From assembly GCA_903917565.1 (NCBI GenBank), contig CAIXBB010000001.1, forward strand, positions 248,001-312,000: 64,000 nucleotides of DNA, written 5' to 3'. The position numbers were made by a program, and so were the translations under genes. The notes beneath the pieces are model-generated. The model saw only the letters and a list, made by a program, of their open reading frames with translations. It was not told the origin of the DNA and searched no databases. The stretch is from an uncultured cyanobacterium (GTDB lineage: Bacteria > Cyanobacteriota > Cyanobacteriia > PCC-6307 > Cyanobiaceae). Positions 8,056-31,680 of this stretch are shown here, one piece after another; within the stretch, counting starts at the first letter, position 1; every line of letters begins with the position of its first letter.

Positions 8056-9240
8056 TCAAGGCGCCGGCACGCTCAGAAACAGGGGTGATGTCTCCGGCGT
8101 TGGCATTGGTGCCACTCCGTCCCGACGGAAGGCCAGCCAGCGGAACTCACCGAGCCCAGCAGGATCCACCAACCGCAACAGGGTCTCCCGCCGTTGCAGG
8201 AGCTCCGCCAGCCGATCCGCCTGACCCTGCTGAAGCGCATGCAGGCGGCTGGCCAGGCCGAGCGCCAGCAGGGCCTCTCCCTGCCGGCATCCGCCCAGGG
8301 GCTGCCAACCGCCGGCCCGGGCCGCCGCCTCCAGGCTCTCCAGGCAGAGATGGGCGGTCAGGTCCCACAGACCCGGCTCCCGCAGGGGATCGTCGCTGGC
8401 CCTCTGGCACCGGTAGGCCATCAGGGTGCCGCCGGAGCGCTGGGGCGCGTAGTAGCGGCGTGCCTCATGGGCGTAATCGATCACCAGCAGCCAGCCCTCG
8501 GACAGCGCTCCGGCGCAGGCGGCCAGCCAGGGTACGAGCCCGGGATGGAGCTCGGTGCACCAGCCCTCCGGGCGGCTCCCATCCAGGGGGAGAAGTCCGA
8601 GGGCTTCCAGCTGATCGAGCAGCGACCCGGTCAGGGGCTCGGCGGCCTCCAGGCCAAGGCTGTCCCCCCGCAACACGACGTGTTGGCGGCACCAGAGCTC
8701 CCCCCGGCGCTCGATCCGCTCGATGGCCAGGGCGTCAAGCACTTCGTGGGCCAGCACGACGCCCCGCAGCGGGGCGCTGGCCAGGGAGTCGAAGTCAATC
8801 CAGCGCACCGGCAGGGGACAGGCACCGAGCCGTTGCCGCTGCCGCTGGGCCATGCCGGCATTCGGCTCCACGAGCACCAGTTCGGTGCGCCCGGCCAGCT
8901 GGGGCCAGCCGTCATGAAGCGCCTCCGCCAGTTGCTGGGCCAGCTGGCCCTCCCCCGGTCCGGTCTCCACCAGGGCCAGGGGGGCGTCCGCCGGCAGCAG
9001 AGCCAGCCACTGGGCCACCTGGGGGGCGAGCAGCTGGGCGAACTCCGGACCCAGCGACGGGGCGGTGGCGAAGTCCCCCCGGGGCCCGATCGCCAGGCGG
9101 CCGCTCCCGTAGGCGCCATGGTCCGGGTCGTGGAGGACCCAGTCCATGTAGTCGAGGAACGGCACCGAACCGCCCGCCGCCCGCAGCCGCTGGGCGAGCC
9201 ACCAAGGAACCGGTGGGGAGGCGGAAGGGGGGGTCTGCAC
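8056..9240 (-). CDS. SAM-dependent methyltransferase, MidA/NDUFAF7-like (COG1565)
   Basis: The 394-residue protein matches the bacterial relatives of mitochondrial NDUFAF7, an arginine methyltransferase for complex I assembly. The N-terminal PFLDYMDWVLHDPDHGAYGS and DFATAPSLGPEFAQLLA segments are hallmarks of the family. The SAM-binding motif is LVETGPGEGQLAQQLAEAL, followed by LVEPN and the post-I motif GVVLAHEVLDALA. In cyanobacteria it could act on NDH-1, but that is inference. The gene starts with a GTG at 9240. Its start faces the divergent psb32 gene across 35 bases. Confidence 0.88.
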   Translation of the reverse strand: MQTPPSASPPVPWWLAQRLRAAGGSVPFLDYMDWVLHDPDHGAYGSGRLAIGPRGDFATAPSLGPEFAQLLAPQVAQWLALLPADAPLALVETGPGEGQLAQQLAEALHDGWPQLAGRTELVLVEPNAGMAQRQRQRLGACPLPVRWIDFDSLASAPLRGVVLAHEVLDALAIERIERRGELWCRQHVVLRGDSLGLEAAEPLTGSLLDQLEALGLLPLDGSRPEGWCTELHPGLVPWLAACAGALSEGWLLVIDYAHEARRYYAPQRSGGTLMAYRCQRASDDPLREPGLWDLTAHLCLESLEAAARAGGWQPLGGCRQGEALLALGLASRLHALQQGQADRLAELLQRRETLLRLVDPAGLGEFRWLAFRRDGVAPMPTPETSPLFLSVPAP

Positions 9241-9275
9241 GCGGCGTCAGGGTGACTAAGTGAGAATGCTGACCG

Positions 9276-24025: not shown

Positions 24026-24250
24026 GGAGCGGCGCCAAAACGTGACTCATTGTGACCGACTGTTGACCCACAGGGCCATGGCCAGGCCAGCCATCAACGT
24101 GAGGTCGGCAGGATGGAGGGGAGCCAACTCCCTGCCGAGTCGCGTTGTTGACGGCGCATCAGGAACTTTCAGCCCAGAATGTCTCCAGCAGCATTCTCGT
24201 GATTGCCCGATATCCACCAGACCACCGTGGGTCAAAAGAACCCTCAGGCG

Positions 24251-25486
24251 ATGAAGATCCCACTCCGGCGCCCAGATGCCGTGGAGCCCGATCCCAACCG
24301 GGACAGCAGGAACAATCAGAGAAGTCATCCGCCACCATTTAGAAGAACAGTGGCATCCATTCAGCGGGTCTTCACTCTCATTGCGATTGTCAATGGGCTT
24401 GTTCTGCTGTACCTGGTGATTGCCGCCATCCAGCTGCTGATGGTTCCCGGCGCCCGATCGGCTGAGATTTATGTCTCGTTGATCCTGACGCTGTTACTGG
24501 TCATCCTGGCGATCATTTCCTATCAGATCATCGCCAGGCGGATCATCCTCCCGATCGCACGGCTGGTCCGCGAAGCCAGTGAGATTGAAAGCGACGACAT
24601 GACCAGCATGCTCACGATCCGCAGCAACGACGAAATCTCAAAGCTCGCTCAGGCCTTCAACATGGTGCTCATCAAAATGCGTCAGGCATTGATTGCGGGG
24701 GATGATAGCAATCAGCAATTGCTGAAAGCCAAACGGCAGATTGAGGCCTCCATCAACTATGCCGCTCTGCTGCAGCGATCAATCCTTCCAGACCGCCAGC
24801 TCCAGGAAACATTCGGCAACGATTACTTCATCCTCTGGCTGCCCCGCGACACGGTTGGTGGTGACTACTACATCTTCCATTCGGAAGGCGGGCACTACCT
24901 TGCGGGGGTGGCCGACTGCGCCGGGCACGGCGTATCAGGGGCCATGATGACGATGCTGGCCCGGGCGGGGATTGACCGCTCCATCATGGAAGTGGGAATC
25001 ACTTCACCAGCCGCCATTCTGAGCGGCACCGATAACGCGATGCGTACCCTGCTGCATGGGGCCACGATGAGCAAGTCCATCGCGACCAGCATGGATATTG
25101 GTCTGGTCCGCCTTGACTTCGAAGCCAGAACACTTAGATTCGCTGGTGCAAAGATCAGTCTCTACTGGAGTGATGGGCAAACGATGCACATGCTCGGAGG
25201 CGATCATCGGGCCATCTGCGACCAACGTATCGGTGCCTACACCGACCACGACATTCCACTGTTGCCAGACTGCACGTACTACCTGACCACCGACGGCCTG
25301 CTCGACCAATCGGGAGGCGAAGAGGGTTTCTCCCTGGGCACCCAGCAGTTTAAGGAATGGCTGATCCAGTTGGCCCGTCAGCCCCTGGACCTCCAACGCC
25401 AGGCCCTCGCCGATGCCCTTGAGCGGTTTCGCGGAGGTCACCCGCAGCGGGACGACATCACGATCCTTTCCTTCCGTTTCTCGTAG
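24251..25486 (+). CDS. siaA: SiaA-like PP2C phosphatase with HAMP domain
   Basis: This membrane-bound SpoIIE/PP2C-type phosphatase has 411 residues from ATG 24251; a TTG at 24203 is an alternative start. Two membrane spans (about 41-64 and 72-93) enclose a loop of only a few residues. A HAMP domain (about 94-147), a helical linker and the phosphatase domain (from about 165) follow. Likely metal-binding aspartates lie in VGGDYYIFH, VADCAGHGVSGAM, TTDGLLDQ and QRDDITIL. In Pseudomonas, SiaA dephosphorylates SiaC so that SiaC can activate the diguanylate cyclase SiaD. That SiaA has a large extracytoplasmic sensor which this one lacks. The sequence is less GC-rich than the flanks. Confidence 0.85.
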   Translation: MKIPLRRPDAVEPDPNRDSRNNQRSHPPPFRRTVASIQRVFTLIAIVNGLVLLYLVIAAIQLLMVPGARSAEIYVSLILTLLLVILAIISYQIIARRIILPIARLVREASEIESDDMTSMLTIRSNDEISKLAQAFNMVLIKMRQALIAGDDSNQQLLKAKRQIEASINYAALLQRSILPDRQLQETFGNDYFILWLPRDTVGGDYYIFHSEGGHYLAGVADCAGHGVSGAMMTMLARAGIDRSIMEVGITSPAAILSGTDNAMRTLLHGATMSKSIATSMDIGLVRLDFEARTLRFAGAKISLYWSDGQTMHMLGGDHRAICDQRIGAYTDHDIPLLPDCTYYLTTDGLLDQSGGEEGFSLGTQQFKEWLIQLARQPLDLQRQALADALERFRGGHPQRDDITILSFRFS

Positions 25487-25495
25487 AGTCGCCTG

Positions 25496-25573
25496 ATGTA
25501 CGAAGCGATCAACGACGATCCCCATCCTCAACTGGAAACGCCCACTCCAGTGACAGCCTCGGAGTCGAAGTGA
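25496..25573 (+). CDS. Possible 25-codon ORF between siaA and siaB
   Basis: A short frame starting MYEAINDDPHPQLE ends in a TGA that shares its A with the ATG of the siaB-like gene (TGATG). The arrangement would permit translational coupling. The ribosome-binding site is weak and the peptide has no recognisable feature, so it may be chance. It fills the only sizeable gap inside the four-gene operon. Confidence 0.22.
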   Translation: MYEAINDDPHPQLETPTPVTASESK

Positions 25574-26121
25574 TGACCATCAGCACCACCAGCCTGATCT
25601 CGCTGAGAGAGTTCTTCAGCAATCACCAGATCCTCATCTGTTTCAACGGGCCCATCTCCACCAACCTGATCGGGGAGATTGGATCGGCGCTAAAGGAACA
25701 CATTGAATCCCATCACGCTCCCGAACTGGAGGTGATGGATGTTTTCAGTGTCTATATCGAGATGAGCCAGAACATCAGGAATTATGCAACAAGTCATGGC
25801 TTCAACGATTCCGAATCCTCCGCAACGGTCGTCATTGCGGCCGCCGAGGCTGGCCATTACGCCGTGTGTGCAGGTAACCTCGTAGAGATGGCGGATGGAC
25901 AGGCCCTGCTGAAACGGATCCACGAGCTCGCGGACTGCGACAAGACCCAGCTGAAGCTGCTCTACAAGCAGCAGTTGCGCCAGCCCCTCGCCCAGACCCC
26001 CGGTCAGGGAGCCGGTCTGGGTCTGATCGAGATCGCCAGGCGCTCGAGCCAGCCCATGGAAGCCTCCCTTGATCCCCTTGAGTCCGGTCTTGCCTTCTTC
26101 AGCCTTCGGGCCATCATCTGA
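25573..26121 (+). CDS. siaB: SiaB-like protein kinase (GHKL fold)
   Basis: The 182-residue protein matches SiaB, a small kinase of the HATPase/GHKL fold that phosphorylates SiaC. An N-box-like helix EMSQNIRNYATSH (about 63-75) and a G-box-like GQGAGLGLIEIARRS (about 153-167) form the predicted ATP site. There is no sensor or dimerisation domain beyond the core. It starts at ATG 25573; GTG 25570 is possible. By analogy with Pseudomonas, SiaA and SiaB act in opposite directions on the SiaC threonine. It lies four bases before siaC. Confidence 0.85.
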   Translation: MTISTTSLISLREFFSNHQILICFNGPISTNLIGEIGSALKEHIESHHAPELEVMDVFSVYIEMSQNIRNYATSHGFNDSESSATVVIAAAEAGHYAVCAGNLVEMADGQALLKRIHELADCDKTQLKLLYKQQLRQPLAQTPGQGAGLGLIEIARRSSQPMEASLDPLESGLAFFSLRAII

Positions 26122-26125
26122 TCCC

Positions 26126-26521
26126 ATGAGCAGCAGCGAAGAACTCAATCTCTCCGTGCCCGGCTCGCAATCCAGCCCGTCGATCCGGGCGGACTGGAAG
26201 GCTGGTGTCGTTGTCATGAGCGGAGAGTCCTATCCGGAGAATTCGTTTGAGCTGTACGACCAGCTGATCCAATGGATTGCCTCCTATCTTTCCAGTGCTG
26301 AACACTCCTTGACACTCGAGTTGCATTTGAACTATCTCAATACCAGCAGCATTCGATTCATGATTGATATCTTTGATTCGCTGCAGATAGCCTATGAGAA
26401 TGGCCGGGAAGTCTTGGTACAGTGGATGTTTGATGACAGGAATCCCCGTTCCGCTGAACTGGGCTCCGAATTCAAGGAGGATTATACTTTTCCGTTTTTT
26501 ATTCTCTCCATCAACACCTGA
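26126..26521 (+). CDS. siaC: SiaC-like phosphoswitch protein (DUF1987)
   Basis: The 131-residue protein belongs to the SiaC/DUF1987 family. The conserved LNYLNTSS segment holds T73, equivalent to the threonine phosphorylated in Pseudomonas SiaC. Unphosphorylated SiaC binds and activates the diguanylate cyclase SiaD there. The 25-residue N-terminus is Ser-rich and probably disordered. Its stop is separated by one base from the ATG of the GGDEF gene, which indicates a tight functional pair. Confidence 0.88.
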   Translation: MSSSEELNLSVPGSQSSPSIRADWKAGVVVMSGESYPENSFELYDQLIQWIASYLSSAEHSLTLELHLNYLNTSSIRFMIDIFDSLQIAYENGREVLVQWMFDDRNPRSAELGSEFKEDYTFPFFILSINT

Positions 26522-26522
26522 C

Positions 26523-27380
26523 ATGCTAGACCCATCCTGTCCAAAGTCCGATGATCAATTGGAACAGGACGTCATGGCGATTCTGGCCGATCAACGTTAT
26601 GACGATGATCCCATTCGCCATCTGCTTGCCCGATTACGGAATCGTATTGAAGAGCAAGTTTATAGGTTGGAAAGGGTTGCTGATATCTCTGATCTCTACC
26701 AGCACCATGTTCTTGAAAGTAATCGTAGTCTGACGGATCGCTACGAGAAGCAGCTGCGTCAGATCAAGCGGGTTGTCAAGATCTCCGACCTTTATCAAGC
26801 TTCACTGAAAGAGTTGAATCTCTCCCTGTTTGAGGCTTCTACCCATGACGCACTGACGGGAGTTTCCAACCGCCGCTTCATGGCAGAACGCTGTCTCGAG
26901 GAAGACCAACGGGCCGCAAGACATGGCTCCACCTATTCAATGATCATTCTCGATGTGGATCACTTCAAACTGATCAACGACAACTATGGCCATGCCACCG
27001 GAGATCTGATGCTGGTGGATTTCGTCAAAGCCCTCACCAGCAGCCTACGTCATTACGACATCATTGCCCGATGGGGAGGCGAAGAATTCATGGCCCTGCT
27101 GATCGATTCCGATCTTTCCGATGCCGAAATCGTGGCCAAACGTATGCTGACGAACATCCGCAACATGAGGGTTTCCATCGACGACATCGAATTGAATCTG
27201 ACAGCCAGTATGGGGCTGACTGAACACAAATCAGATGAGAACTACGACGCCACGTTTCGTCGTGCAGATAAAGCCTTGCTCATGGCCAAGAACGGAGGTC
27301 GGGACCGGCTCGTGGTAATCGATCCCAGAGATCCCTTGAGCCATCGAGAGATCAGTACGCTGATCACTTCCGCTGAGTAA
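26523..27380 (+). CDS. siaD: SiaD-like diguanylate cyclase (GGDEF)
   Basis: The 285-residue protein has a helical N-terminal stalk (about 30-105) and a C-terminal GGDEF domain. The active site is GGEEF (185-189), so it should make c-di-GMP from two GTP. An RHYD motif (176-179) lies five residues before it, the canonical inhibitory I-site for product feedback. The stalk contains a tandem repeat: RVADISDLYQ (51-60) and RVVKISDLYQ (84-93), each followed by E-x-N-x-SL. The stalk is the expected docking surface for SiaC. No membrane segment is present. Confidence 0.9.
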   Translation: MLDPSCPKSDDQLEQDVMAILADQRYDDDPIRHLLARLRNRIEEQVYRLERVADISDLYQHHVLESNRSLTDRYEKQLRQIKRVVKISDLYQASLKELNLSLFEASTHDALTGVSNRRFMAERCLEEDQRAARHGSTYSMIILDVDHFKLINDNYGHATGDLMLVDFVKALTSSLRHYDIIARWGGEEFMALLIDSDLSDAEIVAKRMLTNIRNMRVSIDDIELNLTASMGLTEHKSDENYDATFRRADKALLMAKNGGRDRLVVIDPRDPLSHREISTLITSAE

Positions 27381-30691: not shown

Positions 30692-30891
30692 AGTCCCCTG
30701 GAGTGATCCCAGCAACTCCCCCCGGGCATCGTCTGAGAGGCGAGTGGCTGATCTGGGTTGGCCGGAGCCTGATGGATCGCCACGGCGGCGATGCAAACAG
30801 GCCCTCAATCAACGTACGATTCAATGCAAGCAATGATGCGGATAGGCCGAAGCAACGCCATGAGACTCAGCTCCTCTCCAGCGCCAACGCC

Positions 30892-31680
30892 ATGACCATG
30901 GACCCCCTTGAGCAAGGTTTGCCCATGGATCAGCTGAATCCCGTGATGCCCAGGCTGACGTCCTTGAGCGGTACAGCCGCGAAGCTGTCATCGGAATTGG
31001 CAGACTTGTTTCGATCCAGCGCGAACGAGAGCAAGGGAGTGGTCGTGATCAAAAGGAATCAATTGTTGTTTCGTGAAGGTGATCCCACTGATTCCTTGTA
31101 TCTGCTTGAATCTGGGCGCATCCGGGTGTTCATCCAGAATGCAAGTGGTCAGGAAATCACCATTGCCAGCCTGGAGGCTGGCAGCATCATTGGTGAGATG
31201 ACCCTGTTTGGAGAAATGACTCGGTCAGCCTCCTGTTCAGCGGAGAGCGAAGAGGCATCGTTACTCAGCTTTTCAAATGCCATCGCCATCAATCTGTTGG
31301 ATCGCAATCTGAAATTGCGAGATTCATTATTCAGTGCCCTGATCCAGCGATCACGCAGCATGCTCGCCTACATTGATGAATTCAGCAATCTGACCCAGAT
31401 GGTGGCGTCTGGAAGCTACGGGGATGTGCAGCGATACATCAACGAAACCGCTGATGGCGGTGACAACACCATCAAAGCCGCTCGGGCCTCCTTCACACAG
31501 ATGTTCGAGAGAGTCAAGCAGCGCGAAGATGAACTTCAGCAGAGAATCCGAACACTCAGCATTGAAATCGACCACGCCCGTGCACAGCTGGAGGTTGAGG
31601 AGATCTCTAATGCCGAGGGCTTTCTGGACCTGCTTGACAAGGCCCAGTCCATTCGTTCCCGAAGCCGGGAGGGCCTTTGA
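30892..31680 (+). CDS. Cyclic-nucleotide-binding protein with HAMP-like and coiled-coil tail
   Basis: The 262-residue protein has a cNMP-binding domain (about 45-150) but no helix-turn-helix, so it is not a Crp-type regulator. The phosphate-binding cassette is IIGEMTLFGEMTRSAS, keeping the ribose-contacting Glu (102) and the phosphate-contacting Arg (111). Residues 165-215 resemble a HAMP helix pair (ASFTQMFERVKQREDEL). The C-terminus IDHARAQLEVEEIS...GFLDLLDKAQ matches a motif often seen in cyanobacterial signalling proteins (R-x3-V-x-E-I...F-x-x-L). Several ATGs are possible; 30892 is the first plausible one. It converges on the membrane-protein/ParA pair. Confidence 0.75.
   Translation: MTMDPLEQGLPMDQLNPVMPRLTSLSGTAAKLSSELADLFRSSANESKGVVVIKRNQLLFREGDPTDSLYLLESGRIRVFIQNASGQEITIASLEAGSIIGEMTLFGEMTRSASCSAESEEASLLSFSNAIAINLLDRNLKLRDSLFSALIQRSRSMLAYIDEFSNLTQMVASGSYGDVQRYINETADGGDNTIKAARASFTQMFERVKQREDELQQRIRTLSIEIDHARAQLEVEEISNAEGFLDLLDKAQSIRSRSREGL

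Follow-up and report, generated by a model that had tools for sequence, protein, structure and literature searches.

The sia operon and its flanking elements

The window analysed here, a stretch of 64,000 nucleotides from an uncultured freshwater picocyanobacterium of the family Cyanobiaceae, carries at positions 24251-27380 a complete siaABCD operon in the Pseudomonas order, made up of consecutive plus-strand genes separated by short gaps. siaA (24251..25486, +) encodes a protein of 411 aa with a membrane hairpin (around residues 37-95), a HAMP domain, a coiled coil and a PP2C/SpoIIE phosphatase domain. It is followed by siaB (25573..26121, +; 182 aa), encoding a predicted GHKL-type kinase of SiaC, by siaC (26126..26521, +; 131 aa), whose product is by homology the phosphoprotein of the system, and by siaD (26523..27380, +; 285 aa), encoding a diguanylate cyclase. 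Pfam assigns HAMP and SpoIIE PP2C domains to siaA, DUF6272 to siaB, SiaC (PF09345) to siaC and GGDEF to siaD. SiaB (247.6 bits, cut-off 225, NF038264), SiaC (184 bits, cut-off 150) and SiaD (295.3 bits, cut-off 290) pass the corresponding NCBIfam equivalog cut-offs; three of the four genes would already receive their names from the NCBI profiles. SiaA, at 404.5 bits, stays below the cut-off of 700 of the full-length profile NF038263 because a periplasmic sensor of about 280 residues is absent, the alignment covering only profile positions 288-657 of 658. In the PDB the top matches are Sia proteins of P. aeruginosa, namely 6k4e for SiaA, 6kko for SiaB, 6k4f/6kko for SiaC and 7e6g for SiaD; together with the equivalog scores they rule out chance or mis-annotation. 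The first-pass annotation of this DNA had proposed four consecutive Sia-like genes here on the plus strand, in the order of the Pseudomonas operon, and had made this reading depend on the second and third proteins belonging to the SiaB and SiaC families. Open reading frames, Pfam, NCBIfam and PDB comparisons bear out the four genes, the profiles place both proteins in these families, and the order extends to carriers across the clade. The siaA start codon is uncertain, since the ATG at 24251 corresponds to TTG or ATA in two relatives; this touches just an unconserved, disordered N-terminus.

Between siaA and siaB lies a small ORF of 25 codons (25496..25573, +), the stop codon of which overlaps the siaB start. 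An ORF of 25-32 codons is found at this place in 15/15 close relatives, with a poorly conserved sequence, and a third-codon-position GC of 0.74 vs 0.50 is coding-like; it is probably a translational-coupling ORF. Some other genera show a direct 4-base overlap between siaA and siaB. Upstream, the divergent intergenic region between a minus-strand cation-exchanger gene and siaA (24026..24250) is presumed to contain the operon promoter. It holds a block, CATTGTGACCG, at 24048-24058 that is unchanged in almost all of 15 relatives and that could belong to either promoter, of the cation-exchanger gene or of siaA. A promoter and terminator scan gave nothing above shuffled sequences.

Functional residues of SiaB, SiaC and SiaD

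The molecular basis of the switch has been dissected in P. aeruginosa, where T68 of SiaC and its neighbours N67 and S69 dock onto S82/Q86 and S50/Q54 between the stalk helices of SiaD, and where phosphorylation of T68 prevents this docking (PMC8457831). In the same bacterium c-di-GMP inhibits SiaD at an I-site to which R170 and D173 belong (PMC8457831), and E61 is the predicted catalytic residue of SiaB. The corresponding positions are found in the window. The LNTSS motif of SiaC occupies residues 71-75, so that the phosphosite is T73; this threonine, on whose retention in close homologs the first-pass annotation had also staked its proposal, is invariant across 18 aligned cyanobacterial SiaC sequences. 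In SiaB, E63 within the N-box EMSQN aligns to 6kko, and the G-box GAGLGL is kept at 146. The SiaD stalk contains ISDLYQ twice, at 55-60 and at 87-92, and RHYD (the RxxD I-site, R176-D179) precedes GGEEF at 185, the Mg/GTP-binding stretch being LDVDHFKLINDNYGH; S56/Q60, S88/Q92 and R176-D179 are the counterparts of P. aeruginosa S50/Q54, S82/Q86 and the I-site.

A SiaA phosphatase without an outer domain

Cyanobacterial SiaA proteins have about 385-440 residues, vs 663-715 in the nearest proteobacterial ones, those of Aromatoleum and Alcaligenaceae, in which an outer domain of about 280 residues is placed between both membrane helices. In all 30 full-length cyanobacterial sequences (30/30) this domain is absent and hydropathy predicts a short connection between two helices. 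The AlphaFold model of the window protein (mean pLDDT 81.8) consists of a helix at 37-64, a turn of five residues and a helix at 70-113, after which the second HAMP helix continues into a coiled coil (128-177) and then the PP2C domain. The phosphatase with two spans and almost no outer loop that had been described for the window thus holds clade-wide by hydropathy, and by AlphaFold for the window SiaA. Both methods give SiaA the short-loop, two-helix arrangement by which intramembrane-sensing receptors are recognised. In an alignment of the 30 sequences, half of whose rows are close relatives, I37, Q38, F41, N48, L52 and L55 are invariant in or before TM1, as are L83, S90, R97 and P101 in or after TM2. 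Over the PP2C fold SiaA has 55% identity to 6k4e (E 1.6e-31), the modelled PP2C part matches this structure at 1.9 A, and the acidic metal-ligand residues are invariant in 29 aligned SiaA sequences.

Because every full-length cyanobacterial SiaA lacks the outer domain, the clade appears to have lost it at its base or never to have received it. Deltaproteobacterial MAGs (loci L131 and L135) encode SiaA-like phosphatases that have about 390 residues and no predicted membrane helices; here the outer sensor has been lost independently a second time.

Distribution, origin and loss

PF09345 was detected in 29/300 sampled Cyanobiaceae, in 6/59 genera. In a sample of the phylum (386 genomes, 142 genera) the SiaC equivalog was present in four genomes, all from the genus of the window, and the operon was not found in any sampled cyanobacterium outside Cyanobiaceae. 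Cyanobacterial SiaC matches in the GTDB collection include Cyanobium, Synechococcus, Aphanothece and Vulcanococcus limneticus, and Synechococcus sp. BO 8801 is a carrier that can be cultured. The A-B-C-D order is seen in all 29 carrier genomes and in the named loci; among the carriers, siaA and siaC are broken in one MAG (G200), and a contig end truncates one locus. A tree was built from the joined SiaA-PP2C, SiaB and SiaC alignments by a quick method with midpoint rooting, the P. aeruginosa rows being taken from PDB alignments. In it all cyanobacterial sequences fall into a single clade (SH-aLRT 100), which groups with those of P. aeruginosa, Alcaligenaceae and Aromatoleum. Since this single clade is joined to proteobacteria, the sequences are most simply explained by a single lateral acquisition, with a beta/gammaproteobacterial source. 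Ancient vertical descent within cyanobacteria is ruled out by the absence outside Cyanobiaceae in the phylum sample and by the tree position. No plasmid-borne close relatives were found, the best match having 42% identity.

Across genera, most carriers have the operon beside nrdJ (B12-dependent ribonucleotide reductase) in convergent orientation, while its upstream neighbour varies. Carrier status changes at least six times on the nrdJ tree which, with the shared site beside nrdJ, speaks for one gain followed by several losses. A non-carrier of the same genus, G286, falls inside a carrier clade and holds a relic of the operon (L167, G286:C37, about 8540-9249) that is flanked by a helicase gene and nrdJ and lies close to CRISPR-like repeats. 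In this relic, part of the siaA hairpin (AIQLLRVPGSRSAE) is joined to siaD stalk sequence (RVADISDL), the reading frame is broken by frameshifts and GGEEF of siaD is changed to GWEEF; as read from these remains, it is a decayed siaA-siaD deletion scar.

Genome context and candidate outputs

The genome contains 11 GGDEF, 5 EAL, 5 PilZ and 4 SpoIIE-type matches above cut-off. Among its genes is a BcsA-like cellulose synthase (G000:C45:26162-28048, L162) with a C-terminal PilZ domain bearing RxxxR and DxSxxG; it adjoins peptidylprolyl-isomerase-like and cNMP-binding-like genes. Within the genus, cellulose synthase is present in 12/16 carriers vs 3/9 non-carriers (Fisher p 0.09), and outside it in 1/13 carriers; a family-wide association with sia (p ~1e-8) is confounded by relatedness and genome size. 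These counts rule out the PilZ-bearing enzyme as a dedicated sia output and, because it is missing from 12/13 carriers outside the genus, it is not a general output either; in this genome only, it is possibly a candidate. The output of the switch would be aggregation or attachment, in this genome perhaps by way of the cellulose synthase. Further along the window, at 30703-31680 (+) and downstream of a methyltransferase gene, a protein with a cyclic-nucleotide-binding domain and a coiled-coil C-terminus is encoded, for which no link to sia is established.

Proposed switch and the input of SiaA

At the level of sequence, the family membership, the catalytic and interface residues, the operon order, the missing sensor and the single origin are established, and strong homology supports the core of the switch, in which SiaB and SiaA would act on SiaC and SiaC would activate SiaD. 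If, as we infer, the four proteins work as their P. aeruginosa counterparts do, SiaB would phosphorylate SiaC at T73 and keep it off SiaD, and SiaA would remove the phosphate; dimers of unphosphorylated SiaC would then dock on the stalk of SiaD at its ISDxYQ motifs, turning c-di-GMP synthesis on, with feedback on SiaD through the RxxD I-site. The GGDEF gene might instead be incidental, phosphorylated SiaC controlling another partner, as the longer or absent GGDEF neighbour in more distant Sia loci could suggest; this is very improbable, given that SiaD belongs to the equivalog family, that siaD adjoins siaC in every carrier and that every carrier SiaD keeps at least one ISDxYQ motif (two in most). 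The locus is probably a complete orthologous SiaABCD phosphoswitch, derived from a beta/gammaproteobacterial source, and its SiaA is best interpreted as a phosphatase that senses within the membrane. This would extend a phosphothreonine-controlled c-di-GMP switch, experimentally known from one proteobacterium, to oxygenic phototrophs of lakes.

The input that SiaA reads would be the membrane, as its physical state or as a membrane partner, the basis for an intramembrane input being architecture and conservation. The tight hairpin of two helices, with its invariant polar residues, would act through HAMP and the coiled coil on the PP2C domain. It was proposed in 2025 that P. aeruginosa SiaA senses membrane perturbation, with R8, K10 and S11 near TM1 implicated (PMC12834913). 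Before TM1, the betaproteobacterial relatives have L-R-x-K-S and the cyanobacteria S-I-Q-x-x-F, plus N48; the R-x-K-S of the outgroup matches the residues proposed for P. aeruginosa, whereas the cyanobacterial Q-x-x-F does not, which counts against the intramembrane reading. Given these different residues, the detail differs between the two proteins, and the physical kind of input may yet be shared. The first-pass annotation had concluded that the input must differ from that of P. aeruginosa SiaA: the near-absence of an outer loop on which it relied stands, and the conclusion was a little too strong, as P. aeruginosa SiaA may also sense the membrane (PMC12834913).

SiaA might also sense nothing and be a constitutive phosphatase, regulation lying in operon expression or in SiaB (ATP level, turnover). 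Every cyanobacterial SiaA examined is without the outer domain, a conserved block lies in the divergent upstream region and the small ORF may couple siaA to siaB translation, all of which would suit such an enzyme; yet HAMP, coiled coil, N48 and S90 do not vary among proteins that differ at 40-49% of positions, and a passive anchor would not need these features, so that constitutive activity seems rather unlikely. A separate membrane or periplasmic protein docking on the hairpin, as accessory proteins do with intramembrane kinases, would agree with a hairpin that has no sensor of its own and with an invariant intramembrane N48 that could serve as contact. It is unlikely, however, in view of the neighbourhood: no membrane-protein gene adjoins sia in all carriers, the cation-exchanger and pentapeptide-repeat genes do so in the window's own genus only, and the constant neighbour, nrdJ, encodes a soluble enzyme. 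Intramembrane sensing by the PP2C phosphatase itself, the sensor having been deleted after transfer, at the root of the clade, and sensing having moved to the N48/S90 hairpin, is a tentative reading to which we give slightly less than an even chance; it would make the system a minimal c-di-GMP switch that reads the membrane. The clade-wide loss of the outer domain with the switch kept is a natural experiment on the SiaA signal: with this domain gone throughout the clade and the switch retained, the essential input may lie in the membrane part.

Comparison with known systems

The closest described system is SiaABCD of P. aeruginosa (PA0172-PA0169; 6k4e, 6kko, 6kkp, 7e6g), by which Pseudomonas activates a signal molecule of biofilm formation and which has the same gene order, LNTSS phosphosite, kinase and phosphatase catalytic residues, two SiaD stalk motifs, GGEEF and I-site. 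It differs in its host phylum, in the periplasmic domain of about 280 residues that the cyanobacterial SiaA lacks, and in having no counterpart of the small ORF between siaA and siaB of the window operon. The cyanobacterial host, unlike P. aeruginosa, is not known to have a Psl polysaccharide to regulate. With P. aeruginosa, the SiaABCD systems of Aromatoleum and Alcaligenaceae (L080, L089, L083, L086) provide the closest named non-cyanobacterial SiaABC in the tree, and their SiaA, unlike the cyanobacterial one, retains the outer domain. In having a short-loop membrane hairpin as likely input, cyanobacterial SiaA resembles intramembrane-sensing histidine kinases of the SaeS and GraS type, and likewise DesK (PMC12834913); this likeness is one of working and not of membership, the effector being a kinase in SaeS, GraS and DesK and a PP2C phosphatase in SiaA. 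No description of SiaABCD in cyanobacteria was found in the open-access literature, the scope of the search, in agreement with the earlier remark that the circuit is not described in picocyanobacteria.
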